Shown piece by piece: positions 11,241 to 29,398 of a stretch of 33,878 nt of DNA (its first letter is position 1; every line of letters starts with the position of its first letter). The stretch covers positions 1 through 33,878 of the forward strand of contig CAIWTA010000048.1 of assembly GCA_903915465.1 (NCBI GenBank). The letters are read 5' to 3'. A program made the position numbers and the translations under genes. Origin of the DNA: an uncultured Bacteroidales bacterium. Its GTDB lineage: Bacteria; Bacteroidota; Bacteroidia; Bacteroidales; FEN-979. The notes under the pieces are model-generated. The model saw only the letters and a program-made list of their open reading frames with translations, searched no databases and was not told the DNA's origin.

Positions 11241-12197
11241 TTAAAAAATAAGTTCATCAACCTGTACGCGGTCGATCTGTAACTGTTTTTGCAGTTCCTC
11301 TAAAGTCTGAAAAGGTTTCTCTTCACGAATGAACTTGTGAAAATGCACTGTTGCGGTTGTTCCGGAAAGAATTTCCGGTCTGTCAAATAAATAGTACTCT
11401 ACCACTGCGTCAATAGAAGAGTTTCCGCTTTTTTTAATAAAGCACATTCCCCGGAAATCATTCTTATCATCCTTAACACTCACTGCATATACGCCATTTG
11501 GTGGGAGGAGTTTGTTCTCTTCCTCAATTTTAACACCAAAGCTCGGAAATCCAATCTCCTTTAATTTAGGATTTACCTCATGGATCAATCCCATAATAAT
11601 ATAATGATGATCAAGATATGCATTGGCTTTCTGTATATTTCCTTCCAATAAGGATTTTCTGATCTTTGTGGAACTTACGGATTCATTCTGGATATCCTGT
11701 TCCGGTATTTCTTCAACTTCAAACCCATATTCCTGGCCCAGGTTACGCAGTTCCTCATAATCTCCTTCACGGTTATGGCCAAAATGATGGTTAAATCCTA
11801 CAACGATTCTTCCAGCATGAAGTTTGTTCAGAAGAATATTTTTGACAAAATCTATTGATGTGGTTCTAGCGAATTCCAGTGTAAACTCCACAATAATCAG
11901 GTTGTCAAGCCCTGCCTTCCGAAGTAATTCAATCTTTTCCCTTTGAGAATTAATCAAATAAAGCTCTTTCCCTGAGGTTTCCGGATAGAGAACTTTTCGG
12001 GGATGAGGATGAAAGGTTATCAACACAGTTTCGCCTCCCGACTCCTGTGCAAGTTTTTTTAATCTCTGAAGAATTACTTTATGACCAATATGAACCCCAT
12101 CGAATGAACCTGTAGTAATAACAGCATTACGAATGGAGCCCGCTGCTTCAAAATCTTTAAATATTTTCACTGAATTGTACTTACTTGTAACGTTCAT
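11241..12197 (-). CDS. ribF: Bifunctional riboflavin kinase / FAD synthetase
   Basis: 318 residues making FMN and then FAD from riboflavin and ATP. The N-terminal nucleotidyltransferase domain (about 1-185) carries TTGSFDGVHIGHKVIL, ITFHPHPRKVL, VGFNHHFGHNREGDYE and SSTKIRKSLLEG. The C-terminal kinase domain carries EIGFPSFGVKIEEENKLLPPNGVYAV, a slightly altered form of the usual GFPTANI motif. The ATG at 12197 overlaps the last 17 nt of rex; a TTG at 12212 would extend it by five codons and is less likely. Its coupling to rex and the hydrogenase genes may reflect flavin demand, since each HydB subunit binds FMN, but it could equally be a housekeeping run-on. Confidence 0.94.
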   Translation of the reverse strand: MNVTSKYNSVKIFKDFEAAGSIRNAVITTGSFDGVHIGHKVILQRLKKLAQESGGETVLITFHPHPRKVLYPETSGKELYLINSQREKIELLRKAGLDNLIIVEFTLEFARTTSIDFVKNILLNKLHAGRIVVGFNHHFGHNREGDYEELRNLGQEYGFEVEEIPEQDIQNESVSSTKIRKSLLEGNIQKANAYLDHHYIIMGLIHEVNPKLKEIGFPSFGVKIEEENKLLPPNGVYAVSVKDDKNDFRGMCFIKKSGNSSIDAVVEYYLFDRPEILSGTTATVHFHKFIREEKPFQTLEELQKQLQIDRVQVDELIF

Positions 12198-12822
12198 CAA
12201 TCTTTTTGGCAAAAAATGCCACTTTTTCCAGAGAGGTGATCATGTCGTATTCTTCCAAATAAACGTAGGGAGAAACATTTAATGATTTTGGAGAATAATT
12301 CAGAATCCCTTTGATTCCGGCAACAACAAGAGTTTCTGCGATTGCCGGGGCCTGTTCTGCTGGAACAGTTATGATTCCGATGGAGATATTTTCATTTTTA
12401 ATGATTTCCGTGAGACGGTTCACATGGTAGCATGGAACACCATCATAAATCCGGTCAATTTTGTCAGGATTCAAGTCAAAAGCTGCAACGATCATAAGTT
12501 TCGTTCTTTTTCCCTTGAGATAGCTGATGATAGCCTTGCCCAGATTCCCTAATCCAACTACTGCAACCCGCTGCCCCTTCTCTGTATCGATAATCTTCCC
12601 GATCAATTCAATCAACTCCTTAATATCGTAGCCTTTTCTAAGGTTTCCAGAATACCCGATCAGCATCAGATCACGGCGGACCTGAACAGGAGTAATATGC
12701 AGCATTTGCGCTATTTCATGCGAAAAAACATGGGTCTTTTCTTTTGACTGAATCAGCAACAATGCTCTCCGATACTGGCTTAACCGCTCTACGGTCTTAT
12801 GCGGCAACTGCTTTATGTACAT
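12181..12822 (-). CDS. rex: Redox-sensing transcriptional repressor Rex
   Basis: 213 residues, full length for Rex, a dimer that binds DNA when NADH/NAD+ is low and lets go when NADH rises. The N-terminal winged helix (about 5-80) has FSHEIAQMLHITPVQVRRDLMLIGYSG and KGYDIKELI, the segments that contact the operator. The Rossmann domain has VVGLGNLGKAI at 88-98, AAFDLNPDKI and GIITVPAEQAPAIAETLVVAGIKGILNYSP; the C-terminal swapped helix is YDMITSLEKVAFFAKKI. The start ATG shares one base with the stop of the receiver-kinase gene (TAATG), so translation is coupled. Rex-like operators occur before both hydrogenase operons, including the one this gene belongs to, so feedback on its own synthesis is likely. 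Confidence 0.97.
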   Translation of the reverse strand: MYIKQLPHKTVERLSQYRRALLLIQSKEKTHVFSHEIAQMLHITPVQVRRDLMLIGYSGNLRKGYDIKELIELIGKIIDTEKGQRVAVVGLGNLGKAIISYLKGKRTKLMIVAAFDLNPDKIDRIYDGVPCYHVNRLTEIIKNENISIGIITVPAEQAPAIAETLVVAGIKGILNYSPKSLNVSPYVYLEEYDMITSLEKVAFFAKKIDERYK

Positions 12823-13946
12823 TATTTCTCTTTTAGTAAAGTGACAGTAAAAGTACTTCCTTCATCAGGTTCACTTGAGACTACAATAAATCCGCCATAG
12901 TTTTCGGCCAATTTTCTCACAATCGACAATCCCAGTCCGCTTCCGGTGATGTTTTTTGTCTTTTCATTTTTTATCCTGACGAAATCCTGAAATAACTTTT
13001 CCATTTCTGTTTTCGTCATCCCTATTCCGGAATCAATAACCTCAATCTTGATTTTATCTTCTTCTTCAGTAATATTACAATCAACCGTGCCACCTTCGTT
13101 ATTATATTTAATAGCGTTTGAGATCAGGTTATTAAAAATAATTTCAATTTCATTTGAATCTGCTTTCATTATTACTTTCTCGGGGCCCCGAAGTTTGATG
13201 GTGATATCGCGTTGAATGGAATAGGGCTGAATGGTATCAATTGCAGTATGTGCAATACCCATAATATCGGTTTCAGCAATATTCCGCTGAGCTTTTCCAC
13301 TTTCCACTTTTGTCAGGTCAAGAAGATCAAGGATGATCGTTCGCATACCCTTTATTCTTTCAAGTGAACGATCGATAATTACATCATAATCCTCGATCTT
13401 GTCTCCAAGCTGACGCTCTTTCGTCATTCGTAAATACCCTTCAATAGCATTTAATGGCGACTTTAGTTCATGAGAAAGCACAGAAAGAAACTGAAACCGG
13501 ATTTGCTTGCCTGTATCCTTCAGAGTCTGTGTCATTTTTTTGAGGAACAGACGTTTGGTGATATTTTCTATCGAAGCTTTGAGTTCCTGGGGTGTGAAAG
13601 GTTTTGGGATAAAATCAAAAGCACCGTAATTAGTGGCTTTTACTGCAAGTTCAAGAGATGCATATGAAGTTATCATAACAACAATGATTTTGAATTGTTT
13701 CTTTCTGATGTACTCCAGCACTTCGATCCCCTGAATTCCCGGAAGTTTGTTGTCGAGCAACAAAATATCAGGAATATTATGTTCAATAATATCAATTCCG
13801 GCCTCTCCTGTGGAAGCTTCTAACACTTCGAAGTTAAAAGCTTCTTCCATGAACGGATAATCCACCCTGAAGTTCCGTAATATCCTGCTGACCCCGCTGC
13901 GGATGCCAGGTTCATCATCAACCACCAATATTTTTAATGTCGACAT
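12822..13946 (-). CDS. Receiver-histidine kinase hybrid without sensor or DNA-binding domain
   Basis: 374 residues. The receiver domain spans 1-125 with acidic pocket D10/D11, phospho-acceptor D65 in LLLDNKLPG, and K115 in PKPFT. A linker leads to the HisKA domain with H159 in SVLSHELKSPLNAIEG. The ATPase domain has NNLISNAIKYN, DSGIGM and the G2 box GSGLGLSIV. There is no transmembrane segment, so it is cytoplasmic. The receiver-first order suggests it is itself a phosphorelay target that then controls its own kinase output. It is 46 nt behind the lone receiver gene and overlaps rex by one base. The upstream hydrogenase-kinase fusion is an obvious candidate donor, but pairing is an inference. 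Confidence 0.92.
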   Translation of the reverse strand: MSTLKILVVDDEPGIRSGVSRILRNFRVDYPFMEEAFNFEVLEASTGEAGIDIIEHNIPDILLLDNKLPGIQGIEVLEYIRKKQFKIIVVMITSYASLELAVKATNYGAFDFIPKPFTPQELKASIENITKRLFLKKMTQTLKDTGKQIRFQFLSVLSHELKSPLNAIEGYLRMTKERQLGDKIEDYDVIIDRSLERIKGMRTIILDLLDLTKVESGKAQRNIAETDIMGIAHTAIDTIQPYSIQRDITIKLRGPEKVIMKADSNEIEIIFNNLISNAIKYNNEGGTVDCNITEEEDKIKIEVIDSGIGMTKTEMEKLFQDFVRIKNEKTKNITGSGLGLSIVRKLAENYGGFIVVSSEPDEGSTFTVTLLKEK

Positions 13947-13992: not shown

Positions 13993-14400
13993 CTAACTTG
14001 GTTGTTTTTCTGATAATAATCTTTCTATTTCAGTTTTTAAAAGGTCTGAACGGATCCCTTTATCAAGGAAAAGGTCAGCCCGGATCCATTTACGGTTATT
14101 CTCGTCATTGATATCGAAAGTGATACCGGTTTCCGCGGCAACAGCGGTCGCAATAATAACAGGAACATCGGGATATTTTTTCTTCATTTTATAACTGAGA
14201 ATAAACCCACTGTCTTCATTTTCCATCATAAGGTCAAGGATGGCAAGATCAGGTTTGGTTTTCTCCAGGATCAACTCAGCTTCTTTTTGACTCTCGGCAG
14301 TAATTGTTTTGTATCCGAATTTTTCCAGTTTTAATTGTGTCTGAAATAAATAATCAATATCATCATCCACGATTAAAATAGTTTTGTTTCCCGGTTTCAT
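13993..14400 (-). CDS. Stand-alone response regulator receiver
   Basis: 135 residues made of one receiver domain: ILIVDDDIDYL with D12/D13, phospho-acceptor D56 in LAILDLMME, and a lysine in FLDKGI at the place of the conserved K. No output domain follows. A stretch after the fourth strand, GITFDINDENNRKWIRADLF, is longer than in classical CheY proteins and resembles receivers found near anaerobic metabolic kinases. It lies 50 nt after the hydrogenase-kinase fusion and 46 nt before the receiver-kinase hybrid, the position expected for a phosphate carrier between the two. The direction of transfer is an inference. Confidence 0.9.
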   Translation of the reverse strand: MKPGNKTILIVDDDIDYLFQTQLKLEKFGYKTITAESQKEAELILEKTKPDLAILDLMMENEDSGFILSYKMKKKYPDVPVIIATAVAAETGITFDINDENNRKWIRADLFLDKGIRSDLLKTEIERLLSEKQPS

Positions 14401-14450: not shown

Positions 14451-16460
14451 TTAATTTTGTAATTTCAATCCGCGGGGAATTGTGATCTTAAATGAAGTTC
14501 CTGTTGTCCCTTTTGAAGGATCAGCATTAGAAGTCACATTAATCTTGCCTCTGTGCATTTTGACAATCCCATAAATAAGCGGTAATCCCAATCCTGTACC
14601 TTTTCCCATTTCTTTTGTAGTAAAAAATGGCGTAAAGATTTTATTCATATTTTCTTTGGAAATCCCAAATCCTGTATCAGAAACGATAAAGATTACCTCG
14701 TCTTCATTACCTTCAACACTTACGCGTAAATCGCCACCATTTGGCATCGATTCTACTGAATTTTTTTCCAGGTTAGTCAAAACCTGCATCATCTGGTCTA
14801 TATCAAGTTTTGCAATAGGATCAGTTATTCTTGGTTCAAACACAATGTTGATATTGTCAGGTTTGAGAATAGAATTCAGGCTGTGTTGTGTAAAGTTCAC
14901 AACATCTGTTTCCGAAAGATTGACCTGATTTTTTCGGGCAAAATTCAGTAACCCGCTCACAATTTTTTTACACCGTTCTGCTTGTTCCACAATCAGCTGA
15001 AGATCTTCCCGCAACGGTTCTCCCTCAGGCGCTTCATCCATCAGGATATTACTGTACATTGTAATTACGCCTAATGGATTGTTTAGTTCATGAGCGATTC
15101 CTGCTGAAAGTTGGCCCATATGTGCCAACTTTTCTGATTGTTTTAATGCTGCTTTGGCTGATGCTAATTTTTCGTTTGAGATATTCAGATTTTGAATAGA
15201 GTCATGAAGTTTTTCGATTGCATAGGGAAGACACATCTCAGTCTCTGCCAAACCTGCAACAATGGCAATAGCATGCTCCATGCACGTATCATAGCCGCAT
15301 GCACCACAATTTAAATGATCCTGGGCGGTATATTTTCCCATCGAATGAAGAACAGTCAATATTTTTTCCTCAGGAGGAGTATCGAACCTCCTGTCTTCGG
15401 GTTCAAAATGTTGAGAAAGGTCGATGTGGCTAAATTCGGTCATATCTTTTTCCCACTGTGTGCGGTCAAGATTTTGAAGTTTTTTACGGACATATTGACC
15501 AATCAATGCACTCCTGGCATATTTTTTTCCTCCGGGCGTTGTTCCTGGCCCCATTATACATCCTTCACAACAGAGCAATTCCAGATGTTTGTTTCGGATA
15601 TAACCTTCTTCAAACTCCTTGACGGCTTCTTTAAAGTTGATACGTCCATCAGCAATGACTGTTCTTTCTTCAGGGATTTCTTCACGGCTGTTACTGGTAA
15701 GGAATAATCCACGGCTGACAGGAAAGATTGCCCCTTTCCCGCTATGTGGTTGGTCAAAGTCAGAGAGCTCTGTATTACTGGGATGAATGTCTTTGAGTTC
15801 AAACATTTCCCGTAATTCTAAAAAAGTCATTACTTCATCTGTTTCGTCAGATTCTGCTTTCTTTGCAAAGCAGGGACCGATGAAGACTATTTTAAGATTA
15901 TCACCATGTTTCTTATGTAATATGCGGCACATTGCAACCATCGGTGAAACAATAGGAGCAAGGGAACTGACTATTTCGGGATGGTAATGCCGGATAAAAT
16001 AGGTAACTGCTGGACAATCCGAGGAGATATCACCAGAATACCCAATTGTATTCATCCTTTTCTCGTATTCTTTTGCGACAATATCAGCTCCAAAAGCGAC
16101 TTCTGTGACATAATCAAAACCCAACTTCCGGATCATCCCAACAAGAACCCTGTGATCTGGAATCTCTGTAAATTCAGCCGGGAAGCTCGGAGCAATACAG
16201 GCTGCAATTTTGTGTTCGGAATTTAACAGTGAAAAAACTTCGTCAACTGATCGCAAGGAAATTTTCGCTCCCTGGCTGCATACTTTGACACAGTTTCCAC
16301 ATCCGATACAACGGTCGTTGACCACTTCAGCCTGGCCGTTGATAATCTTGATTGCCTTAACAGGGCATTCCCTAAGGCAAGTATAACAGACCCTGCAACG
16401 GTCCTTTAAAGTATATACAAGTTGGCGATGGAATGATTGGCTCATAATACTCGTTATCAT
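14451..16460 (-). CDS. [FeFe]-hydrogenase-like sensor fused to a histidine kinase
   Basis: 669 residues with parts in this order. Two [4Fe-4S] ferredoxin motifs: C22/C25/C28/C32 and C51/C54/C57/C61. A hydrogenase large-subunit-like domain keeps all four H-cluster cysteines: C149 in SSDCPAV, C197 in GPCFAKK, and C297/C301 in CCEGCIMGPGTTPGG. An Fe-S domain with C385/C388/C393/C410 follows. Then come a coiled linker, HisKA with H457 in AHELNNPLGV, and an ATPase domain with DTGFGI and GKGTGLGLPLIYGIV. Asp replaces the proton-relay cysteine of catalytic enzymes (TSCCP becomes SSDCP), as in sensory group C [FeFe] proteins. The start ATG overlaps the hydA1 stop (ATGA, 16457-16460); an ATG five codons in (16445) is the alternative. 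It probably senses H2 or redox state and passes phosphate to the receivers downstream. Confidence 0.93.
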   Translation of the reverse strand: MITSIMSQSFHRQLVYTLKDRCRVCYTCLRECPVKAIKIINGQAEVVNDRCIGCGNCVKVCSQGAKISLRSVDEVFSLLNSEHKIAACIAPSFPAEFTEIPDHRVLVGMIRKLGFDYVTEVAFGADIVAKEYEKRMNTIGYSGDISSDCPAVTYFIRHYHPEIVSSLAPIVSPMVAMCRILHKKHGDNLKIVFIGPCFAKKAESDETDEVMTFLELREMFELKDIHPSNTELSDFDQPHSGKGAIFPVSRGLFLTSNSREEIPEERTVIADGRINFKEAVKEFEEGYIRNKHLELLCCEGCIMGPGTTPGGKKYARSALIGQYVRKKLQNLDRTQWEKDMTEFSHIDLSQHFEPEDRRFDTPPEEKILTVLHSMGKYTAQDHLNCGACGYDTCMEHAIAIVAGLAETEMCLPYAIEKLHDSIQNLNISNEKLASAKAALKQSEKLAHMGQLSAGIAHELNNPLGVITMYSNILMDEAPEGEPLREDLQLIVEQAERCKKIVSGLLNFARKNQVNLSETDVVNFTQHSLNSILKPDNINIVFEPRITDPIAKLDIDQMMQVLTNLEKNSVESMPNGGDLRVSVEGNEDEVIFIVSDTGFGISKENMNKIFTPFFTTKEMGKGTGLGLPLIYGIVKMHRGKINVTSNADPSKGTTGTSFKITIPRGLKLQN

Positions 16461-18163
16461 GCAATAAAATTGTGGAGGATATTGATTCCTAAACTATTTT
16501 CATTCTTGTCAAGGATTTTCTCATAAAGGGAAAGAATAGCTGGATTTTTGTGAGCAACCTTGATCAATTCTTCTTCATCTGCTTCGTAGAGTGCCTTCAT
16601 CCTGGATTTTAAAGATTTTTCATCAGTTCCTATCCGCTGACCTCCGCCGTTGATACATCCATATGGGCAAGCCATCACTTCTACTAAATGAATGTTGTTT
16701 CTTCCAAACTCAATCTCTTTAAGCAACTGTATAGCATTAGAAAGGCCGCTTACGGAAACAAAGCCAATGCTCATTTTTCCAATTTTCATCCGGATCTCTT
16801 TCCGTGTTTTTAATCCCCTGGTTTCTGAAACCTTAGCAGGGCTCAAATCTTGTCCTGTTAACTTGCAGTGTAGCGTTCTGAATACGCTTTCAGAGACACC
16901 ACCGGAAACGCCAAAGAGTTTCCCGGCAGATCCTCTCATCCCATAGGGCTGTTCTGAAGTATCTGGTTCAAGCGTGGAAAAGTCAATTCCAAAATGTCGG
17001 ATCATCTTAACTAATTCACGGGTTGTTATAACTGCATCAACATCCCTGGTACCGCAATCGGCTACTACACTTTTCTCCGCTTCATGTTTCTTTGCTGTAC
17101 AAGGCATCACAGCGACAGAAAAAACCTTTTTTGATGATGAATTCTCACTTTCAGTATAAAACCTTTTAATCATCATACCCATCATTTGCTGCGGGGTTTT
17201 ACTTGTTGCCAGATGCTTTTTCAGATCCGGTCTGGCTTGTTCAATATAGTTAACCCATGCCGGGCAACAACTGGTAAAAAGAGGAAACTTCTCTTTGTTA
17301 TTAATCCTTTGGACCAACTCCTCCGACAATTCCATAATTGTTAAATCAGCTCCGAGGGAAGTGTCAAAGACCTGTTTAAATCCCATTTTTTGTAAAGCTG
17401 TCCATAGTAAATTCAGGACATCTTTCCCAGCTTTTATGCCGATATCTTCTGAAACTGAAGCCTGTACAGCAGGGGAAACCTGAATAACCGGGTAGAATTG
17501 TGGATTGTTCATAGCTTCGAGGACAATATTGTAACTGGATTTTTCTTTCAAAGCACCAGTAGGACAAACCATAATGCATTGTCCGCATTTTACACACGAC
17601 TGCGTATTTAATCCTCTATTATTTTGTGTTCCGATTGAGCTCTTATTTCCTCTTCCAATTATTTCAATAGCCCCGACTCCAATTGTTTCATTGCATATAC
17701 GGATACAGCGTTCACATAGTATGCATTTTGCAGGATCTCTTTCAATCGATGGGCAGCTTCTGTCGATGATGATTGATGGCTTTCTGCTCCTGTATTTCCT
17801 TTCCGTAATATTCAACTCATCCGATAAGGTTTGAAGTTCACATGCACCCATCCTGCTGCAATAGAGACAATCGTCAGGGTGTGCTGCCAATAATAACTCA
17901 ACCAATGTTTTTCTGGCTTTGAGCACGCGTGGTGAATGCGAATATATCTTCATCCATTCTTCGACAGGATGAGAGCAGGCTGTGACAAGGTTCTCCATTC
18001 CTTCAACTTCTACAACGCACATCCTGCATGATCCGGTGGGAGTGAAGCCGTTTAAGTGGCAAAGGGTAGGAACTTTAATTCCATTCCGGTTAAGGATTGA
18101 TAAAATTGTCTCACCACTTTTTGCTGCGACTTTTTGATTATTTATTTCAACCGTAAACACCAT
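16457..18163 (-). CDS. hydA: [FeFe] hydrogenase catalytic subunit HydA (NuoG-like), copy 1
   Basis: 568 residues, the catalytic subunit of an NADH-linked, probably electron-bifurcating [FeFe] hydrogenase. Cofactor sites in order: [2Fe-2S] C35/C46/C49/C63; His-Cys3 [4Fe-4S] H95/C99/C102/C108 with GACELQ; two [4Fe-4S] sites C147/C150/C153/C157 and C190/C193/C196/C200. The H-cluster motifs are TSCCPAW (C299 proton relay, C300 ligand), MPCTAKK (C355) and EVMACPYGCINGGGQR (C499/C503). All ligands are present. The last motif departs from the common ACPGGCIGGGGQP at three places (Y, N, R). It is cytoplasmic, with no signal peptide or Tat motif. It lies 6 nt from hydB1 and overlaps the sensor-kinase gene by 4 nt. 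Bifurcation is inferred from the three-subunit set. Confidence 0.96.
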   Translation of the reverse strand: MVFTVEINNQKVAAKSGETILSILNRNGIKVPTLCHLNGFTPTGSCRMCVVEVEGMENLVTACSHPVEEWMKIYSHSPRVLKARKTLVELLLAAHPDDCLYCSRMGACELQTLSDELNITERKYRSRKPSIIIDRSCPSIERDPAKCILCERCIRICNETIGVGAIEIIGRGNKSSIGTQNNRGLNTQSCVKCGQCIMVCPTGALKEKSSYNIVLEAMNNPQFYPVIQVSPAVQASVSEDIGIKAGKDVLNLLWTALQKMGFKQVFDTSLGADLTIMELSEELVQRINNKEKFPLFTSCCPAWVNYIEQARPDLKKHLATSKTPQQMMGMMIKRFYTESENSSSKKVFSVAVMPCTAKKHEAEKSVVADCGTRDVDAVITTRELVKMIRHFGIDFSTLEPDTSEQPYGMRGSAGKLFGVSGGVSESVFRTLHCKLTGQDLSPAKVSETRGLKTRKEIRMKIGKMSIGFVSVSGLSNAIQLLKEIEFGRNNIHLVEVMACPYGCINGGGQRIGTDEKSLKSRMKALYEADEEELIKVAHKNPAILSLYEKILDKNENSLGINILHNFIA

Positions 18164-18169
18164 ATCCGT

Positions 18170-20119
18170 TTATTTTATAATGATCGCATTAAATTTGCAA
18201 CTTTCAAAACAAATTCCGCAGCCGTTACATTTTTTCTCAATAATAAAATGAGGGGATTTGATGATTCCGATGATGGCATGTTCAGGACATTTTTTCTGGC
18301 ACACATTGCATCCGTTGCATGCATCAACTTCGATACAGAATGTTCTTAATTCCCGGCAAACACCTGCTGCACATCGACGGTCGAAGATATGTTCTTCAAA
18401 TTCTTCGCGGAACCACTTTAATGAGCTCAGCACAGGATTTGCGGCATTCTGGCCAAGTCCGCACAATGAAGTCTCGGTTATGACTTGTGCAAGATTTTCC
18501 AGTTGAACGATTCCTTTGAACCGCTCAAGCGTTTCATGGGAAGTATCTTCTTTTGGCCTTTTTGTAGTGCTTTCAAGGATTTCAAGAATACGCCGTGTAC
18601 CCTCGCGACAGGGAATGCACTTTCCACAACTTTCTTTCTGGAGGAACTCCATAAAATATCTGGAAAGACTGACCATGCAAACATTTTCATCAAGGACCAC
18701 CAATCCTCCAGATCCAATTGAAGCTCCAACCGCATTCATAGTCTCATAACCGACTTCAACATCCAACTCAGATTCTGGAATACAGATTCCAAGGGGACCT
18801 CCAATCTGGATTGCTTTGAGTTTCTTGCTATCCTTTACTCCACCACCTAATTCAGTTATGATAGTGGAAAGCTTAATTCCCATGGGTACTTCAATGAATC
18901 CGCTATGTTGAATTTTTCCGGTCAATGAAAACAATTTTGTTCCTTTGCTGTTTTTGGAACCAGTGGCTTTGAACCAGGCAGGTCCGTGTTCAAGAATTGA
19001 AGGGATATTGGCGAGAGTTTCCACATTATTTACTACCGTGGGGCGGTTAAATAATCCAGATTCAGCAGGAAAGGGTGGTTTTGCAGTAGGTATTCCTCGT
19101 TTTCCAAGAAGACTGGCAATAAGGGCAGTCTCTTCTCCACAAACAAAAGCACCTGCACTTTGGCGGATCGTGATATTCAAATTAAATCCACTGCCAAAAA
19201 TGTTTTGCCCAAGAATCTCACATCTTTTAGCTTCCAGAATGGCCTGTTCAAGAAGAATTAAAGCCCTGGAATAATCAGATCGGATGAATATATATGCATT
19301 GCTTGCTCCAATAGCATAAGAAGCAATCGCAATACCTTCAAGCAACATGTGTGGGTTTCCTTCTATCAGCGCACGCTCCATAAAAGCACCTGGATCGCTT
19401 TCTTCAGCATTGCAAATTAAATATTTTTGTTCACCTGCAGTCTCTAATGCTACTTTCCACTTTTTCCCGGTGGGGTAACCGCCGCCGCCTCTTCCACGTA
19501 ACTCACTTTGTACGATTATATCGCAAACTTTTTCAGCAGTATAATTTGTTACAGTTTTGTAAAAGGATTTATACCCACCTTTTGCAAGGAAATCTACAAT
19601 CGAAAATGGTGAAATTAGTCCTGCATCTTTCAAAAGAATTCGGGACTGAAGTGAAAAATAAGGCAATTGCTCAATTACAGGAACATTGGCCCAGTTTTCA
19701 GTCAGGTTTGCAGGGTATTGACCTAAAACGTCTTCAGATATAATGGTTTTATTTAATGCAGATTGAAGATGCTCCTCTACTTTTTCAGCAGTGACCTGAC
19801 GAAATGAAACCCTTGCTTTTCCTGGAATCTGAACGTCCATCAAAGGTTCTTCAGAACATAATCCGATACAACCCACTTCTACAATTTCTGCCGAAATCCC
19901 GTTTTCTTTAATAAAGCGCTGTACAGCTTGCAATGTCTCATAAGAACCTGCAGCGAGTCCACAGGAACCAGTTCCAACATAAATTACCGGAACTGTAACA
20001 TTCTTCCTGGTAAGAAGTTGTAGCCGCTCACGCTCTTCCTTATTATATTCTCCGATTGAGTTTTTTAGCACCCGCTCGATCAGAAAAGTCGTTACTTCGA
20101 AAATAAGGGTATTATCCAT
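18170..20119 (-). CDS. hydB: HydB-type NADH/FMN subunit with fused N-terminal thioredoxin-like [2Fe-2S] domain, copy 1
   Basis: 649 residues, the flavin subunit that exchanges electrons with NAD(H). Residues about 43-120 are a thioredoxin-like ferredoxin domain with C53 in GTGSCGLAAG and C84/C88 in VGCIGLCSEEP. The NuoF core follows: SELRGRGGGGYPTGKKW for NADH, NAEESDPGAFMERALIEG for FMN, then an SLBB region and ESCGKCIPCREGTRR with its [4Fe-4S] site. Two C-terminal [4Fe-4S] ferredoxin motifs end the protein (CNGCNVCQKKCP and CNGCGICFESCK). The flavin motif reads NAEES where NADE(G/S) is usual. The domain order matches HydB of bifurcating hydrogenases such as that of Thermotoga. It lies 16 nt after hydC1 and 6 nt before hydA1. 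In the second operon the first domain is a separate gene. Confidence 0.95.
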   Translation of the reverse strand: MDNTLIFEVTTFLIERVLKNSIGEYNKEERERLQLLTRKNVTVPVIYVGTGSCGLAAGSYETLQAVQRFIKENGISAEIVEVGCIGLCSEEPLMDVQIPGKARVSFRQVTAEKVEEHLQSALNKTIISEDVLGQYPANLTENWANVPVIEQLPYFSLQSRILLKDAGLISPFSIVDFLAKGGYKSFYKTVTNYTAEKVCDIIVQSELRGRGGGGYPTGKKWKVALETAGEQKYLICNAEESDPGAFMERALIEGNPHMLLEGIAIASYAIGASNAYIFIRSDYSRALILLEQAILEAKRCEILGQNIFGSGFNLNITIRQSAGAFVCGEETALIASLLGKRGIPTAKPPFPAESGLFNRPTVVNNVETLANIPSILEHGPAWFKATGSKNSKGTKLFSLTGKIQHSGFIEVPMGIKLSTIITELGGGVKDSKKLKAIQIGGPLGICIPESELDVEVGYETMNAVGASIGSGGLVVLDENVCMVSLSRYFMEFLQKESCGKCIPCREGTRRILEILESTTKRPKEDTSHETLERFKGIVQLENLAQVITETSLCGLGQNAANPVLSSLKWFREEFEEHIFDRRCAAGVCRELRTFCIEVDACNGCNVCQKKCPEHAIIGIIKSPHFIIEKKCNGCGICFESCKFNAIIIK

Positions 20120-20135
20120 GGAAATCGGATTTGTT

Positions 20136-20585
20136 TTATATAGAAGACAGGATTTTATGAATATTCTCTTTAGATAATTGGGAATGATAGTTCCCGTTTA
20201 TTGACATCACAGGGGATTTGCTACATGCACCAAGACAAGAAACTACTTCAATACTGAACTTACCGTCACGTGTTGTTTGACCGGCTTTAATCTGAAGTTT
20301 TTTTTCAATCTCTGTAAGCAAGGCTAAGGACTGATTTACCTGGCAAGTTGTTCCCTTGCAAACCTTTATATGAAAACTTCCTTTCTTATGAAAATGAAAC
20401 TGATCATAAAACGTAGCTACACCATAGACCTGATTAATGGGCACGTTCAAATGCTTACTTACGAATAAAAGGGAATCACCAGACAAATACCCCAGTTCTT
20501 TTTGAATCTCCTGCAAAACAGGAATCAGGTTTTCCTTATTATTCAAAGGGTATTTTACGAGTATACCATCAATAACCTCTTCCAT
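20136..20585 (-). CDS. hydC: HydC, NuoE-like [2Fe-2S] subunit, copy 1
   Basis: 149 residues, the small thioredoxin-like iron-sulfur subunit of HydABC hydrogenases, homologous to NuoE of complex I. An N-terminal helical bundle (LIPVLQEIQKELGYLS...VYGVATFYDQF) is followed by the [2Fe-2S] domain with C76 and C81 in VCKGTTCQ and C117 and C121 in VVSCLGACSKSP. All four ligands are present. It is the first gene of the operon. A TAnnTTTG element lies about 33 nt before its ATG, with a double Rex-like operator further upstream. It has no signal peptide and should act in the cytoplasm with HydA and HydB. Confidence 0.95.
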   Translation of the reverse strand: MEEVIDGILVKYPLNNKENLIPVLQEIQKELGYLSGDSLLFVSKHLNVPINQVYGVATFYDQFHFHKKGSFHIKVCKGTTCQVNQSLALLTEIEKKLQIKAGQTTRDGKFSIEVVSCLGACSKSPVMSINGNYHSQLSKENIHKILSSI

Positions 20586-20753: not shown

Positions 20754-20850
20754 GAGAAGCGACAGGAATTGCAACAACCTGAATGTTATCGCAAGAATCT
20801 CATTATATTCAGTTCGTGGCAAGAAAACATGAACAATTGAACTTTAATTG

Positions 20851-22719
20851 ATGGAACCACTTTTTAAAATAATTACACAAAAATGCATCAAGTGCTACGC
20901 TTGTGTACGAATTTGTCCGGTGAAAGCCATTAAAGTAGATGAAAACACAGAATCTCCTTCTATCGTTCCAGAAAGATGTATAGGATGCGGGAGTTGTTTT
21001 AGAGCATGCTCTCCTGCTGCGATTATCTACAGAAGTTCCATTGACGAAACTAAAACCCTTTTGCAATCCAGTAATAATGTTGTTGCTATTTGTGATCCTT
21101 CTATTTCGGGAGAATTTCACGACATTACAGATTACAGGAAGTTTGTTGAAATGATTAAGCAGTTGGGTTTCGCAAAAGTTGCTGAAGTCTCTTTTGGAGT
21201 GGATTTAGTTGCAAGAAAGTATCAGGAACTTTTTGAGAATTTTCATGGGAAGTATTTCATTACTTCAATTTGCCCGGCTGTTGTTGCATTTATTGAAAAG
21301 TATTATCCCGACCTGATAACTAATTTAGCTCCAATTGTCAGTCCAATGATTGCGACAACTAAAGCTATCCACAAAAAATATGGGAAGGATGTAAAAATCG
21401 TTTTTATTGGCCCCTGTATCGCGACAAAAGAGGAAGCGCTAAGGTTTGAAGGCGATGCCAAAGTGGATTCTGTTCTGACCTTCATCGAGCTTCGCCAATT
21501 GTTCTCTGAGTTCAATATCCGTGAAAGCCAGCTTGAGTTTTCAGAGTTCGATCCTCCGGTAGGATATAAGGGGTCTTTATACCCTTTAAGCAATGGCATC
21601 CTTCAGGCTGCAAATCTCAGCGAAGACCTTCTTACAGGCAGCATAATAACAACAGAAGGACGAAACAATATGCTTGATGCTGTTAAAGAGTTCTCATCCA
21701 GGATTGAATTGATCAAAAGGCATTTCAACATTTTCTATAACGAAGGTTGCCTGATGGGACCTGGTACTTCGCCAGGTGGTGAGAAATTTCTCAGAAGGAC
21801 ATTAGTCACTGAATATGACAATAAACGGTTGATGCAGTTTGATAATATAATCTGGGATCAGGAAATGGATTTTTTCTCTGCACTTGATCTTTCAAGGCAA
21901 TTTATTCCCGATGATCAGCGATTACCTGTTCCTGGAGAAGAAGTCATTAAAGAAATTCTGTTAAGGATTGGCAAAGAAGCGGAAATTGTCAACGAGATAG
22001 GTTGTGAATCATGTGGGTATAGTTCATGCAGGGAATTTGCTGTGGCAATTGCTCAGGGTTTAGCAACTACTGATATGTGCCATATCTACAGTACCCAAAA
22101 CCGGCAGGATTACATTAAATCTTTGCGTGCCGCCAATGAAAAGTTGGCAAAAACACAGGCTGCGCTGAAAATGTCAGAGGAAAAGACAAAAATAGAGCAG
22201 GAAGTAGAACGAGAAGCCTCTGCTACGATGTCTGCTATGTTGCAAAAATTAGTTTCAGGAGTTGTTATTGTTGATGAACATTTGAAAATTACTCAATCCA
22301 ATAAAGCATTTGTGAAAATTGTTGGGGAAGATGCTGTGCTTGTTGATGAGGTCATCCCTGGTCTTATCGGGGCAGACCTGAAAAGCCTTCTGCCTGTTTC
22401 TTTTTACAAACTTTTCTCCTATGTGCTTACTTCAGGTGAAGATATTCTTAACAGGGATGTGCAATACAAGGATAACACATTAAGCATTTCAGTCTTCACC
22501 ATTCGGAAAAATAAATTTGTTGGCGGAATCTTTCGGGACATGTACACGCCGGAAGTCAGAAAAGAACAGATTATTCGAAGGCTTACAGAAGCTACGGATG
22601 AAAATTTTGAGATGGTTCAAAAAATAGCATCCTTATTAGGTGAAGGCGCTGCTAAAACAGAGAAAATATTGAAAAGCGTAATTGAATCACATCAATCATC
22701 TCAAAAGAAAAATATCTGA
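20851..22719 (+). CDS. [FeFe]-hydrogenase-like sensor with C-terminal PAS-like domain
   Basis: 622 residues from the ATG at 20851 (a TTG precedes it directly). Two [4Fe-4S] motifs: C12/C15/C18/C22 and C43/C46/C49/C53. The H-cluster domain has C141 in TSICPAV, C189 in GPCIATK and C300 in NEGCLMGPGTSPGG. The position that should hold the third ligand (C in CxxGC) is Y296, so one H-cluster ligand is missing, and the proton-relay cysteine is Ile. An Fe-S domain has C385/C388/C393/C410. A coiled segment (430-460) leads to a PAS-like domain at about 462-570 (VVIVDEHLKITQSNKAFVKI). There is no kinase or other output domain; the next gene, which it overlaps, is a PP2C-type phosphatase. It resembles HydS-type group C proteins. 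Whether it still binds H2 is uncertain. Confidence 0.9.
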   Translation: MEPLFKIITQKCIKCYACVRICPVKAIKVDENTESPSIVPERCIGCGSCFRACSPAAIIYRSSIDETKTLLQSSNNVVAICDPSISGEFHDITDYRKFVEMIKQLGFAKVAEVSFGVDLVARKYQELFENFHGKYFITSICPAVVAFIEKYYPDLITNLAPIVSPMIATTKAIHKKYGKDVKIVFIGPCIATKEEALRFEGDAKVDSVLTFIELRQLFSEFNIRESQLEFSEFDPPVGYKGSLYPLSNGILQAANLSEDLLTGSIITTEGRNNMLDAVKEFSSRIELIKRHFNIFYNEGCLMGPGTSPGGEKFLRRTLVTEYDNKRLMQFDNIIWDQEMDFFSALDLSRQFIPDDQRLPVPGEEVIKEILLRIGKEAEIVNEIGCESCGYSSCREFAVAIAQGLATTDMCHIYSTQNRQDYIKSLRAANEKLAKTQAALKMSEEKTKIEQEVEREASATMSAMLQKLVSGVVIVDEHLKITQSNKAFVKIVGEDAVLVDEVIPGLIGADLKSLLPVSFYKLFSYVLTSGEDILNRDVQYKDNTLSISVFTIRKNKFVGGIFRDMYTPEVRKEQIIRRLTEATDENFEMVQKIASLLGEGAAKTEKILKSVIESHQSSQKKNI

Positions 22720-23908
22720 TCCCGTGGGTGGAGACTTTTATATTGAAGTTAATTGCCAGCAAAGAAATCATTCTGATGAACGCGTATGCGGAGATGTTTT
22801 TCTTTCTAAGAGGATAAAGGAAGAAGGTCGGCTAATTGTAGTCCTTTCTGATGGCATTGGACATGGAATCAAGGCAAACCTGCTTGCCACAATGACAGCC
22901 ACATTGGCAGTAAATTTTACAGAGGAACATAAAAACATTGAGAAAATTGCCGAAATAATTATGAATACGCTGCCAGTTGACAGTATAAAAGGTACTAATT
23001 ATTCGACATTTACCATCATTGAAATGGATGCAGAAGGGGAAGTTAAAATCCTGGAATACGAAAATCCCAGAACGTTGATTTTAAGAGGTCCACGTTCATT
23101 TGTACCTGAATGGAATGGAGTTTTACTCGACTCGGAAAAGCATTTTGAGAAGGAAGTTTTAGGATGTTCTTTCAAGCCCGTCAAGGAAGACAGGATCATT
23201 TTCTGTACGGATGGTGTCAATCAGTCGGGTTTAGGAACTGAGAAATATCCGGTTGGATGGGGAGAAGAAAATCTTGAGCAATTTGTCCTTAATATAGTTA
23301 AAGAGGAACCTGATATTTCTGCAACAAAACTTTCGTCAAAGGTTATTGGCAGAAGCAATGCCAATGATAATTTTTTCCCGAAAGACGATATGAGTTGTGG
23401 GGTTATTTATTTCCGGGAACCGAGGAAACTTCTGATTTGTACCGGCCCACCACAAGTTGAACTGGATGATCCTGTGTTTACAAAAATATTTGAAGAATTT
23501 CCTGGCATAAAGATAATTTGCGGTGCAACAACGGCTGATATAATTGCCCGTGAACTGAATAAAAAGATCATTGATTCCAATGTGATTTCTGATACTGAGC
23601 TACCTCCTGTTGCACATATGGCTGGAGTTGAGATAATTACTGAGGGGATTCTCACCTTGAGCAGAGTCAGTGAGATATTGAAAGGATATACTCAAACAAC
23701 GAGCCTGGGGAAGGGCCCGGCCGATGAAATCGTCAGGAGAATTCTTGATTCTGACGAAATTCATTTTCTTACGGGAACAAAGATCAATATTGCACACCAG
23801 GATCCGACACTTCCGGTTGAACTGGAATTGCGCAGGACTGTAATTCACAGGATAGCACGGGTACTGGATGAAAAGTTTCTGAAGGAAGTGGAAATGAAGT
23901 TTTTTTGA
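22682..23908 (+). CDS. SpoIIE/PP2C-family serine phosphatase with an uncharacterised C-terminal domain
   Basis: 408 residues if translation starts at TTG 22682, inside the end of the sensor gene; GTG at 22724 would give 394 and keeps the whole domain. No ATG is available before residue 71. The phosphatase domain spans about 15-245 with metal-binding aspartates D38 (VCGDVF), D57 (VLSDGIGHG), D177 (CTDGVN) and D235/D236 (KDDMSCG). It should remove phosphate from serine or threonine of a partner. Residues about 248-408 form a second domain, starting PRKLLICTGPP and containing HMAGVEIITEGILTLSRVSE, which I do not recognise. The overlap implies production in step with the hydrogenase-like sensor, which probably controls it through its PAS-like domain. 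No anti-anti-sigma (STAS) partner is encoded nearby, so its target is unknown. Confidence 0.85.
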   Translation: MNHINHLKRKISDPVGGDFYIEVNCQQRNHSDERVCGDVFLSKRIKEEGRLIVVLSDGIGHGIKANLLATMTATLAVNFTEEHKNIEKIAEIIMNTLPVDSIKGTNYSTFTIIEMDAEGEVKILEYENPRTLILRGPRSFVPEWNGVLLDSEKHFEKEVLGCSFKPVKEDRIIFCTDGVNQSGLGTEKYPVGWGEENLEQFVLNIVKEEPDISATKLSSKVIGRSNANDNFFPKDDMSCGVIYFREPRKLLICTGPPQVELDDPVFTKIFEEFPGIKIICGATTADIIARELNKKIIDSNVISDTELPPVAHMAGVEIITEGILTLSRVSEILKGYTQTTSLGKGPADEIVRRILDSDEIHFLTGTKINIAHQDPTLPVELELRRTVIHRIARVLDEKFLKEVEMKFF

Positions 23909-24011: not shown

Positions 24012-24491
24012 CTAACTGTTATATTCCGCCACTATTTCTTTAACTCCTTCAGGAGATACACGTCCATATACTTTTTCACCAACCATTACAACCGGTGCAA
24101 GGCCACAAGCGCCAACACAGCGAAGGCAACTCAGGGAAAACTTCCCGTCAGGTGTGGTTTCCCCAACCTGAACTTTCAAAACACGCTTGAATTCTTCCAG
24201 AACTTTCTCTGCTCCTCTTACATAGCAAGCTGTTCCAAGGCAAATTGAAATAGGGTGTTCACCTTTAGGAACCATTGTAAAAAAAGAATAAAATGTAACT
24301 ACACCATACACATGAGCGATAGAGAGGTTCAGCTCTTGGGCAATGGATTCCTGGACTTCAGCAGGGAGGTATCCGAAGATACCCTGAGCTTTATGGAGTA
24401 CATTGATGAGCTCACTTTTCTCATTATTAAATGATTTACAAACTTCTTTCAGCTCTTGTTTTTTCTTTTCAGATAATTTGATCTTTGCCAT
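24012..24491 (-). CDS. hydC: HydC, NuoE-like [2Fe-2S] subunit, copy 2
   Basis: 159 residues. The N-terminal helices (KSELINVLHKAQGIFGYLPAEVQESIAQELNLSIAHVYGVVTFYSFF) and the [2Fe-2S] domain with C84 and C89 in ICLGTACYV and C125 and C129 in LRCVGACGLAP are those of NuoE/HydC. C122 in the same segment is extra. This is the last gene of the second hydrogenase operon, 38 nt after hydA2, while copy 1 is the first gene of its operon. The two copies differ widely, so they are not a recent duplication. Confidence 0.95.
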   Translation of the reverse strand: MAKIKLSEKKKQELKEVCKSFNNEKSELINVLHKAQGIFGYLPAEVQESIAQELNLSIAHVYGVVTFYSFFTMVPKGEHPISICLGTACYVRGAEKVLEEFKRVLKVQVGETTPDGKFSLSCLRCVGACGLAPVVMVGEKVYGRVSPEGVKEIVAEYNS

Positions 24492-24529
24492 ATTATGATT
24501 TAATTTCTCAATTTCACCATTCGCTTTCT

Positions 24530-26317
24530 TTATTCTTCAACAAATACACTGGAGCTCCGGTCGAAATACTTGGTGTGCAATAAGTGGTGAGATTTTTCAC
24601 CTAAAGGTTTACCCAGGAATTCTTTATAAAGTTCGATGATGAAAGGATTTTCATGAGATTTCCGGATTGTTTTCCCATCATCCTCTTTGTATAATGCGGC
24701 TGCCCGCTGTTTTAATATCTCTGAATTTCCATGGTGGAAAGGTTGGCCTCCTCCACCAATGCAGCCGCCCGGACATGCCATGATTTCAATAGCATGGAAT
24801 TGGTTTCGACCTGCCTGGATATCCTCCAATAGCTTTCTTGCGTTTCCCAGACCATGGGCAATACCAATATTGATAGGAAGACCATCAAAATCGATGGTAG
24901 CATGACGGATGTTTTCGAACCCCCGTAATTCCTTAAAATCTACTTTCTCCAGTTTTTTTCCAGTAAAAAGTTCATAAGCAGTTCTGCAGGCAGCTTCAAT
25001 AACCCCACCTGTAGTACCGAATATGACACTTGCTCCTGTAGATTCACCCAATGGATTATCAAAACCTTCGTCTGGCAAGGAATTGAAATCGATGTTTGCT
25101 TGTTTAATTAATTGGGCAAGTTCACGTGTCGACAATGAGAAGTTCACATCGGGGTCGCCATTTACTTTAAATTCCTCACGCTGACATTCATATTTCTTTG
25201 CCAAACAAGGCATAATTGAAACCACGATAAGGTCTTTTCTGTCAATGCCAAGTTTCTTCCCAAAATATTCTTTTGCAATAGGGCCGAACATCTGCTGAGG
25301 TGACTTTGCAGTTGAAGGAATATCGCGCAGTTCAGGAAAATTGTGTTCAAAAAAATTGACCCATCCTGGGCAACAAGAAGTAAGGATGGGCAGGTTGGCG
25401 TTTTTGTCACCTTTAAGGTAACGGGTAAGGCGGTCGAGTAATTCACTCCCTTCTTCCATAATAGTCAAGTCAGCAGCAAAATCTGTGTCGAACACGTAAT
25501 CAAAGCCAAGTCTTCTGAGTGCTGCGGCCATCTTGCCTGTCACAAGGGTGCCTGGCATCAGCCCAAATTCTTCACCTAATGCAGCTCTGACGGCAGGTGC
25601 TGTTTGCACCACGACTGTCTTGGCGGGGTCAGCAAGAGCATTGATGACGTTGCGAGAGTGGTCAACTTCTGTCAGGGCACCGGTAGGACAAACTGAAACA
25701 CATTGTCCGCAATATGTGCACGGCGATTTTTCAAGATTCATCTCGAATGCCGGGGCTACCACTGCCATGAATCCTCTGTTGACGGCAGAAAGCGCACCAA
25801 CTGTCTGAACTTCATTACACATCAGTTCACATCTGCGGCACATGATGCATTTATCAATGTCGCGGATGATAGCAGGGGATGTGTCTTTGCGATAAGCAGA
25901 TTGTTCCCCTTGAAAAGGAATTTCCCGAACGCCAAGTTGTTGTGCCATGCTCTGCAATTCGCAACTTCCCGATTTAGCACAAGTAAGGCATTCGGCTGGA
26001 TGATCAGACAAAATAAGCTCCAGGACAGTTCTTCTTGCATTCAATACCCTTATAGAATGGGTGCTAATTATCATCCCATTTTCCACTCGTGTAGTACATG
26101 CAGGAGCCAGGTTGCGTCTGCCTTTTATCTCTACAACACAGATTCGGCAGCCGCCCGGCTTATTTTCAATGCCCATGTCCTTGAGTTCAAAAAAACACAA
26201 AGTAGGTATTTCAATACCAACGGTTTTGGCAGCCTTCAGTATTGAAGTATCTTTTTCGACTTCAAGAAGTTCCCCATCGATGGTCAGTTTTATCAATTCC
26301 ATTTTGTCTGTCTTCAT
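24530..26317 (-). CDS. hydA: [FeFe] hydrogenase catalytic subunit HydA (NuoG-like), copy 2
   Basis: 595 residues. Cofactor sites in order: [2Fe-2S] C41/C57/C60/C74; His-Cys3 site H106/C110/C113/C119 with GSCELQ; [4Fe-4S] C157/C160/C163/C167 and C200/C203/C206/C210. H-cluster motifs are standard: TSCCPGWV (C315 relay, C316), MPCLAKK (C371) and EIMACPGGCIGGGGQPFHHG (C515/C519). The C-terminal LLHTKYFDRS tail is typical of bifurcating HydA. The start ATG shares one base with the hydB2 stop (TAATG), which favours it over the ATG five codons in. This copy is the more canonical enzyme and probably evolves H2 from NADH and reduced ferredoxin, or the reverse; the physiological direction cannot be read from the sequence. 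Confidence 0.97.
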   Translation of the reverse strand: MKTDKMELIKLTIDGELLEVEKDTSILKAAKTVGIEIPTLCFFELKDMGIENKPGGCRICVVEIKGRRNLAPACTTRVENGMIISTHSIRVLNARRTVLELILSDHPAECLTCAKSGSCELQSMAQQLGVREIPFQGEQSAYRKDTSPAIIRDIDKCIMCRRCELMCNEVQTVGALSAVNRGFMAVVAPAFEMNLEKSPCTYCGQCVSVCPTGALTEVDHSRNVINALADPAKTVVVQTAPAVRAALGEEFGLMPGTLVTGKMAAALRRLGFDYVFDTDFAADLTIMEEGSELLDRLTRYLKGDKNANLPILTSCCPGWVNFFEHNFPELRDIPSTAKSPQQMFGPIAKEYFGKKLGIDRKDLIVVSIMPCLAKKYECQREEFKVNGDPDVNFSLSTRELAQLIKQANIDFNSLPDEGFDNPLGESTGASVIFGTTGGVIEAACRTAYELFTGKKLEKVDFKELRGFENIRHATIDFDGLPINIGIAHGLGNARKLLEDIQAGRNQFHAIEIMACPGGCIGGGGQPFHHGNSEILKQRAAALYKEDDGKTIRKSHENPFIIELYKEFLGKPLGEKSHHLLHTKYFDRSSSVFVEE

Positions 26318-27780: not shown

Positions 27781-27794
27781 CTTTTCTTCCTCTG

Positions 27795-28193
27795 CTAAAT
27801 GCTTTCGATGGTTTGATAATTTGAAGGAATGACACCTTCGATCAATTCACCTTTACGGATGTATCGTTCAATAATCTCATCGGCTTTTTTAGTGGTTACA
27901 TATCCGAAAGTGATTGGTTCCTTTCCAGGAATAGTCACTTCGATTGTAGGTTCAGCATAGCAATAACACATGCAGCCTGTTTGGGTCACCAGCGCTGGGA
28001 TGCTTCTTTTTTCCAATTCATCTCTCATGTATTCGAGCACAGCTCTCGCACCGGAAGCAACACCGCATGTGGCCATTGCAACTTTTATCTGAATAATACT
28101 ATCAGGGTGATTTTTATTGGATAGAGCAGACATCTTTGTTTTCAAATCCTGCCCGATCTTCTTCAATTCATCGAACGACTTCACCTTTGCCAT
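27795..28193 (-). CDS. Thioredoxin-like [2Fe-2S] ferredoxin subunit of the second hydrogenase
   Basis: 132 residues from the ATG at 28193 (MAKVKSFDELKKIGQD). The open frame continues upstream, but that part runs through an inserted repeat and is not coding. The cysteines lie in MATCGVASGARA and TGCMCYCYAEP, the pattern of the thioredoxin-like ferredoxin domain fused to HydB in copy 1 and of separate small ferredoxins next to NuoF-like genes. It probably carries a [2Fe-2S] cluster and forms part of the flavin subunit assembly. It is the first gene of the second operon, separated from its Rex-type operators by a MITE-like element. Confidence 0.9.
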   Translation of the reverse strand: MAKVKSFDELKKIGQDLKTKMSALSNKNHPDSIIQIKVAMATCGVASGARAVLEYMRDELEKRSIPALVTQTGCMCYCYAEPTIEVTIPGKEPITFGYVTTKKADEIIERYIRKGELIEGVIPSNYQTIESI

Positions 28194-28220
28194 AATCTTG
28201 TGATTTAATATTCTAAATAA

Positions 28221-28375
28221 GAGTCCACTCTGAAAAGTATCAATCCGTGAAAAGTGTTGGGCTAAAGCCCTATATTTCAGCGATTTGCCTAACCCCGACC
28301 TTAAGGTCGGGGTTATTGATAACCAATACGTTACTGGACTTTGGTCCAAGATATAATACTTTTTGGAGTGGGCTC
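28221..28375. mobile_element. MITE-like element in the hydrogenase leader
   Basis: The 155-bp element is bounded by GAGTCCACTCTGAAAAGTAT on the left and, inverted, GAGCCCACTCCAAAAAGTAT on the right (17 of 20 match). AAATAA stands directly outside both ends (28215-28220 and 28376-28381), a probable 6-bp target duplication. Inside are GGGCTAAAGCCC, a perfect 26-nt palindrome at 28290-28315 whose arms are TAACCCCGACC and its complement, and TGGAC...GTCCA. It encodes no transposase and would need one from elsewhere. It lies between the hydrogenase promoter and the first gene. Confidence 0.7.
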
Positions 28376-29359: not shown

Positions 29360-29398
29360 AATACCATTTCTTAGTTAAAAAAGTCCGGAAACTTTTCA

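Follow-up and report, generated by a model that had tools for sequence, protein, structure and literature searches.

The closest described relatives of the protein reported here are the BfuT sensors. BfuT with a histidine-kinase domain is assigned to group C3 and lies beside bfuABC in BfuABC sub-type V; three Bacteroidota, including Perlabentimonas gracilis, are reported to have a second bfuT upstream of bfuC, the significance of which is called unclear (PMC11406978). On this account, a kinase fusion beside a bifurcating hydrogenase and the presence of two sensor genes in Bacteroidota are already described. HydDB lists a histidine kinase-linked group C1 and a phosphatase-linked group C3, both as putative (PMC5037454). 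We found no biochemistry of a kinase-fused sensor in the open-licence papers searched. For TamHydS, a sensory hydrogenase of group D (M2e), the C-terminal cluster was not reduced by H2 and the authors dispute a redox signal through it; a dimer predicted for TamHydS along its C-terminal helix scored low at the interface (PMC13104023). Deletion of hfsB, a PAS-type HydS homologue, increased the ethanol yield, partly with higher adhE expression (PMC5707799). In the regulatory [NiFe]-hydrogenases, a hydrogenase-type receptor, HoxBC, likewise drives a histidine kinase, HoxJ (PMC5707799, PMC8011034), although receptor and kinase are separate proteins there (PMC8011034). HoxJ also has a PAS-like part. 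The metal site of HoxBC is unrelated to that of [FeFe]-hydrogenase.

We analyzed a stretch of 33,878 nucleotides (the window; contig CAIWTA010000048.1) from an uncultured Bacteroidales bacterium, whose features are collected in Table 1. Its minus strand encodes, in this order, hydC, hydB, hydA, a fusion of an [FeFe]-hydrogenase-like sensor with a histidine kinase (HydS-HK), the receiver RR1, the receiver-kinase Rec-HK and rex. As in the kinase-bearing BfuT of group C3, the kinase is fused to an H-domain with hydCBA upstream, and the two sensor genes of the window are arranged as described for bfuT, one downstream of bfuA and the second upstream of bfuC. Two organisms named in PMC11406978 have homologues that align with HydS-HK, at 49% in Hydrogenedentota CSSed162cmA_463 (L106) and at 56% in P. 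gracilis M08_MB (L136). The latter locus has the layout of the window: a divergent PAS sensor, hydCBA, HydS-HK, RR1, Rec-HK and Rex. The terms "response regulator", "receiver" and "rex" are absent from the main text of PMC11406978, and in the available portion of that paper we found no discussion of three features described below: the linker, the missing L3 residue and the degeneration of the second sensor. These features, with the reassigned L3 ligand and an almost invariable Rec-HK, did not turn up in the literature searched, and we make no claim that they are unpublished.

Table 1. Features of the window, with positions counted from its first nucleotide
Feature	Position	Strand	Basis
hydC	20136..20585	minus	Pfam
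hydB	18170..20119	minus	Pfam
hydA, group A catalytic subunit, bifurcating type (TSCCP, PCTAKK, ACPYGC)	16457..18163	minus	Pfam/NCBIfam, alignment
HydS-HK, [FeFe]-hydrogenase-like sensor and histidine kinase fusion	14451..16460	minus	ORF, 669 codons; probable start Met6 at 16443-16445
Two N-terminal [4Fe-4S] sites (C22, 25, 28, 32, 51, 54, 57, 61)	16278..16397	minus	Pfam Fer4 families
H-domain, residues 83-304	15549..16214	minus	Fe_hyd_lg_C PF02906, 8.5e-42
L1 motif SSDCP: Asp148 at the proton-relay position, C149 predicted ligand	16011..16025	minus	alignment
L2 motif GPCFAKK: C197 predicted ligand, K200 equivalent to CpI K358, Gly195 replacing Met353	15858..15878	minus	alignment
L3 motif CCEGC: predicted ligands C298 and C301; C297 variable	15558..15572	minus	alignment
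C-terminal cluster domain, Cx2Cx4Cx16C (C385, C388, C393, C410)	15228..15317	minus	PF04060, 2.2e-10
Predicted heptad signalling helix, residues 411-456, between C410 and H457	15093..15230	minus	spacing, alignment, model
HisKA (DHp), residues 447-510, phospho-acceptor H457	14931..15122	minus	PF00512, 9.9e-15
HATPase_c, residues 552-662	14475..14807	minus	PF02518, 4e-22
RR1, single-domain receiver, no output domain found	13993..14400	minus	PF00072
Rec-HK, receiver-controlled histidine kinase, likely next step	12822..13946	minus	PF00072, PF00512, PF02518
Rex redox repressor	12181..12822	minus	NCBIfam Rex models, two above cut-off
Second, divergent sensor: H-domain-like, cluster domain and PAS, degenerate H-cluster pocket	20848..22719	plus	Pfam, alignment
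SpoIIE-type phosphatase, probable partner of the PAS sensor	22682..23908	plus	PF07228, 6.6e-12

As the initial annotation had proposed, a hydrogenase-like sensor is fused directly to a complete kinase core in one reading frame. The Pfam domains run from ferredoxin-type clusters (residues 17–64) through the H-domain to an Fe-S domain (residues 382–411), which is followed by the kinase with H457; the annotated absence of a PAS domain between them also held, as none was detected at E ≤ 1e-3 in a Pfam search of the ORF. Each of the eight N-terminal ligand cysteines is present in all but one of 107 aligned rows, the exception being a gap, and the four cysteines of the C-terminal cluster domain are Cys in all 107 (both counts precede the removal of duplicates). 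The phospho-acceptor, in the motif HELNNP, is His in all 102 relatives. An AlphaFold2 model of HydS-HK (59 sequences) has a mean pLDDT of 87.4 and a pTM of 0.69. By VIA-align, model residues 7–355 superpose onto the solved [FeFe]-hydrogenase 8zqd_A with a Z of 38.6 and an rmsd of 2.4 for 341 aligned residues, which, together with the conservation across phyla, excludes a chance resemblance to [FeFe]-hydrogenase. The first structural match of the model other than hydrogenases is ZraS (9jfj_B), with a TM of 0.84 by target length for the kinase part.

HydS-HK follows hydA of hydCBA, so that its annotated place in the hydrogenase operon stands, but the annotated 4-nt overlap with hydA hinges on the choice of Met1. 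At least 90% of 30 relatives retain Met6, which coincides with the beginnings of their chains and is the probable start; it lies 11 nt beyond the hydA stop and, thus, the overlap is likely an effect of start calling.

The fusion is widespread. In a scan of a genome collection with 577 confirmed matches, the kinase lies on the same ORF in 75 of the 80 best, which rules out a rare fusion or an assembly artefact; of the other five loci, four (L100, L103, L115 and L125) reach the contig or locus end and one (L142) encodes a PAS-type sensor. A kinase-type sensor match was present in 32 of 61 related genomes, own genome included (27 of the 37 listed under its family and 5 of the 24 listed under its order), and 30 sensor genes from these, window included, were recovered at full length. 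The 58 rows of one tree come from records with 18 phylum-level names, including Bacteroidota, Planctomycetota, Hydrogenedentota, Calditrichota, Myxococcota, Acidobacteriota, Elusimicrobiota, Lentisphaerota, Ignavibacteriota and Actinomycetota; as most are metagenome bins, individual phylum names may be wrong. A tblastn search against plasmids returned at least 5000 records, apparently mostly other kinases, in none of which a single region covered 80% of the query, and supplied reference HydS sequences from Ruminococcus albus, Monoglobus and Acetoanaerobium. The 102 kinase-fused relatives compared here are ORFs of at least 580 aa scoring above 250 bits, after removal of five duplicates (L074–L078), with thresholds of at least 600 aa and above 150 bits for rows from related genomes; the cut-off loci L100, L103 and L115, the distant L073 (26% identity) and split genes in G029 and G035 are excluded.

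The distance from the last cluster ligand, C410, to H457 is 47 residues in 88 of the 102 relatives and 40 in the other 14, with no other length. One heptad separates the two. A tree from which the linker was left out requires three changes of length (bootstrap 5–95% range 3–4, with at least two changes forced by the starred branches) and, therefore, the seven-residue step seems to have arisen more than once. In 47-type linkers, the d positions (−39, −32, −25, −18, −11 and −4 relative to the His) are hydrophobic, with Ala included, at a frequency of 0.99–1.00, and the d series from −32 to −4 of the 40-type is hydrophobic at 0.93–1.00. The a positions −42 and −35 are also hydrophobic, and those nearest the kinase (−28, −21, −14 and −7) are polar (0–6% hydrophobic). 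Thus, the linker is not a uniform coiled coil. Structure prediction of the linker, suggested earlier as a check, gave a single continuous helix (residues 411–476) that starts right after the last cluster ligand and runs into the kinase. Its middle has a pLDDT of 55–62 in the monomer model, a coiled coil being beyond what a monomer can display. The initial annotation had the signal pass straight from metal cluster to kinase; direct coupling is backed by the 47/40 spacing and the modeled helix, whereas the polar a positions depart from a simple coiled-coil connection. The fixed linker and the predicted helix support mechanical coupling of the cluster domain to the kinase. They argue for a mechanical path and do not establish the redox state of the C-terminal cluster as the message.

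The H-domain retains a complete set of candidate H-cluster residues, one of which had been assigned to the wrong cysteine. An alignment that includes the group A subunits encoded alongside reveals a one-residue deletion in loop L3 (ELLCCE-GC versus EVMACPxGC, or CxxC versus CxxxC). The column of CpI C499 is occupied by C298, which is Cys in all 102 relatives; the C297 column holds Cys in 68, Phe in 16, Ala in 9, Ser in 8 and Thr in 1. An alignment by phmmer to T. maritima HydA places C298 in the same column, with a weakly scoring segment. By alignment, the predicted H-cluster ligands of HydS-HK are C149, C197, C298 and C301: three of the four cysteines named in the initial annotation are retained, and C298 replaces C297. 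All four, and the CN-binding Lys (K200), are present in all 102 relatives, and HydG, HydE and HydF score over the cut-off on other contigs of the same genome. Loading of the H-cluster is therefore plausible, ligands alone being no proof of it. At six picked loci, all ten of the downstream ORFs that were chosen are HydE, HydF or HydG by NCBIfam, a hand selection and no survey.

HydS-HK resembles TmHydS from Thermotoga maritima (group C, M2f) in its two N-terminal clusters, H-domain, C-terminal cluster, loss of the relay Cys and Gly at the M353 position (PMC8163306, PMC10055695). Compared by description, it differs in having a kinase, Asp at the relay and Leu at M497, where TmHydS has a PAS domain, Ala and Ser, respectively. 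With TamHydS, it shares the absence of PAS, Leu at M497 and the Cx2Cx4Cx16C cluster, a motif named for groups C and D (PMC8163306); TamHydS lacks the kinase fusion and has Ser at M353. The four H-cluster cysteines and the C-terminal cluster of group C are present in HydS-HK, without the PAS domain of M2f, and the M353 position is Gly in all 102 relatives rather than the Ser or Thr of group D (M2e).

Asp148 at the proton-relay position, noted initially, is borne out by the alignment. This position is Asp in 51, Thr in 19, Ser in 17, Ala in 8, Pro in 5 and Asn in 2 of the 102 relatives, and Cys in none; Asp is, thus, not a hallmark of the kinase fusion. Asp occurs in members of the family and order to which the window belongs and in records labeled as Bacteroidota, other Bacteroidota rows having Ser, Ala, Pro or Asn, and by this distribution Asp is a Bacteroidota trait. 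Among published sensory sequences, 17% are reported to have Cys and about 43% Ala at the relay (PMC10055695). Engineered Cys-to-Asp variants of CpI and CrHydA1 retained 30–80% of H2 release, H2 uptake by the CrHydA1 variant falling to 1–2% (PMC6226526), and the same exchange biases three model enzymes towards H2 evolution (PMC9563086). As engineered Asp keeps H2 release, the proton site of HydS-HK is, by analogy, probably working but altered. The low uptake of the engineered variant speaks against a fast H2-oxidizing sensor.

HydS-HK is probably a soluble sensor kinase of the group C HydS type, in the BfuT/HK form, in which H2, or the H2/electron balance, would act via H457 on a Rec-HK/RR1 chain. 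The sequences establish its architecture, the conservation of its ligands and partners, the fixed linker and the presence of maturases. H2 is the likely signal; cluster loading, the direction of the switch, the dimer, the phosphate path and the target are likewise what we infer. In the proposed mechanism, H2 or the H2/electron balance would act on the H-cluster within residues 83–304, and a conformational change would travel from the H-domain to the C-terminal [4Fe-4S] domain, whose last ligand abuts the long helix. The paired helices would twist or zip in a fixed heptad register and set the autophosphorylation of H457, from which phosphate would pass to the receiver of the adjacent Rec-HK and/or to RR1. 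Rec-HK would relay the signal onwards to an unlinked effector, a route proposed because Rec-HK is the steadiest partner of the sensor and by analogy with the step from LvrA to LvrB (PMC13269768). The system would probably serve to adjust the bifurcating hydrogenase to the pressure of H2, alongside the NADH-sensing repressor Rex.

Redox sensing rather than H2 sensing, with electrons from ferredoxin or HydABC entering the N-terminal clusters and the H-cluster acting as a redox-poised switch, is the best of the alternatives, and we regard it as unlikely but of some weight. The eight conserved N-terminal ligand cysteines fit this arrangement, as does the adjoining Rex, Rex being an NADH/NAD sensor. 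The wide variation of the relay residue (D, T, S, A, P or N) also suggests that fast turnover is not under strict selection. However, the invariant [2Fe]-site ligand C301 and CN-binding K200 would be needless in a plain Fe-S sensor.

The neighbors of the sensor are largely constant. Of 96 loci with sufficient flanking sequence, at least 83 have hydA immediately upstream, the distance threshold having missed some (e.g. L112). A receiver protein adjoins the sensor in at least 76 of 87 loci, and Rec-HK lies downstream in 84 of 87, making it the steadiest neighbor. The layout of Rec-HK, with the receiver N-terminal to HisKA/HATPase as in LvrB, is the same in 83 aligned rows, window included. Among 61 loci for which both flanks were available, Rex was found in 41, on the downstream side in 33 and on the upstream side in 8, and not found in 20. 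Pfam detected no DNA-binding domain in RR1 or Rec-HK, Rex is the only DNA-binding output of the cassette, and no output regulator for the cassette was found in the open-licence literature searched, in part with this aim. RR1 covers only the first 83 of the 111 positions of the receiver model; beyond the conserved Thr, some residues particular to this stretch are partly conserved across 99 aligned receiver ORFs, that of the window among them. This tail is apparently longer than usual for a receiver. At three loci (L119, L135 and L153), the retrieved stretch contains the kinase-fused sensor and Rec-HK but no hydABC and, thus, the pair may be a functional unit.

The two hydA genes of the window differ in conservation. 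In genomes of the same family, hydA of the sensor operon is less conserved than the adjoining sensor (49–66% versus 58–81% identity to the window proteins), and the relay Cys or CN-binding Lys is altered in 7 of 31 aligned hydA copies, window included (L044, L049, L050, L051, L056, L059 and L064), the window copy being canonical. A second hydA (24530–26317) is far more conserved (83–90% in loci showing it), with a further copy in L066 at 49%. Given the weak conservation and altered residues of the first, hydABC of the sensor operon cannot be taken as certainly the main enzyme. The second hydB-hydA-hydC set, with a response regulator bearing a Trans_reg_C domain and another histidine kinase next to it, occupies 24012–28349 and 28634–31294, both on the minus strand, and is also kept in L066. 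Contig C180 of the same genome (L001 and L002) has two more [FeFe]-hydrogenase genes in open frames of 603 and 1136 aa.

That hydA so often precedes the sensor, and that the sensor is the more conserved of the two where both are seen, could instead reflect docking of the H-domain on HydABC, the kinase then reporting assembly or turnover of the enzyme irrespective of the H2 level. We judge such contact control improbable, since the kinase and Rec-HK occur with no hydABC in the stretch retrieved at the three loci above. Sensing of H2 or of the H2/electron balance remains our preferred reading.

The divergent gene pair at 20848–23908 has the same layout as R. albus HydS with its SpoIIE neighbor. 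The PAS domain of this second sensor is weak in the window copy (E 0.016), and in an alignment of 14 members, including two clostridial references, PAS_8 matches 10 at E ≤ 0.05. We compared 44 sister sensors, the 46 unique PAS-side rows without the more distant type of L071 and L072. None has the Lys equivalent to CpI K358 (Ala in 19, Thr in 13, Ser in 9, Gln in 2 and Asn in 1), and the C499 equivalent is Cys in 14, Asp in 17, Asn in 10 and other residues in 3. The relay position is Asn in 39 of the 44 and Ile in the window copy. Both the Lys and the Cys are kept in the three clostridial references (R. albus, Monoglobus and Acetoanaerobium). R. albus HydS keeps the L3 CxxxC and the L2 Lys, whereas the window PAS sensor has neither; the L3 deletion is common to the PAS sister and the kinase form. 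In the tree, the PAS sensor nests among kinase-fused rows, which fall on one side in 0% of 200 bootstraps; however, a tree with all kinase-fused rows together is not rejected by the AU test (p 0.34). A separate kinase clade is thus permitted, and derivation of the PAS sensor from the kinase-fused one is not certain.

From these substitutions, the PAS/SpoIIE sister is possibly a pseudo-hydrogenase. A further, rather doubtful proposal is that the locus forms a two-arm H2 gauge. One arm would be the intact HydS-HK, its heptad-locked helix feeding a Rec-HK phosphorelay without a dedicated adjacent transcription factor; the other, a duplicated pseudo-hydrogenase, would serve as a reference or redox arm and not as a second H2 sensor, given its loss of the CN-binding Lys and, mostly, of the [4Fe-4S]H ligand. 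It is highly improbable that HydS-HK is itself a decayed hydrogenase without an H-cluster, a mere scaffold for the kinase, for although Asp replaces its relay Cys and its PAS sister has lost H-cluster residues, all of its predicted ligands are invariant, maturases are encoded in the genome and the Cys-to-Asp exchange leaves much of the H2 release of CpI and CrHydA1 intact (PMC6226526).

How sensory [FeFe]-hydrogenases transfer their signal has been approached mainly through TmHydS and TamHydS, both without a kinase, and a redox role of the C-terminal cluster has recently been challenged. HydS-HK carries the sensor and its predicted readout, autophosphorylation of H457, on one chain, and has a natural Asp at the site where engineered Asp in catalytic enzymes keeps H2 release. 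The register rule offers a sharp test, shifts of 7 residues in the linker against shifts of 1 to 6. As the family spans many phyla, the answer would be general.
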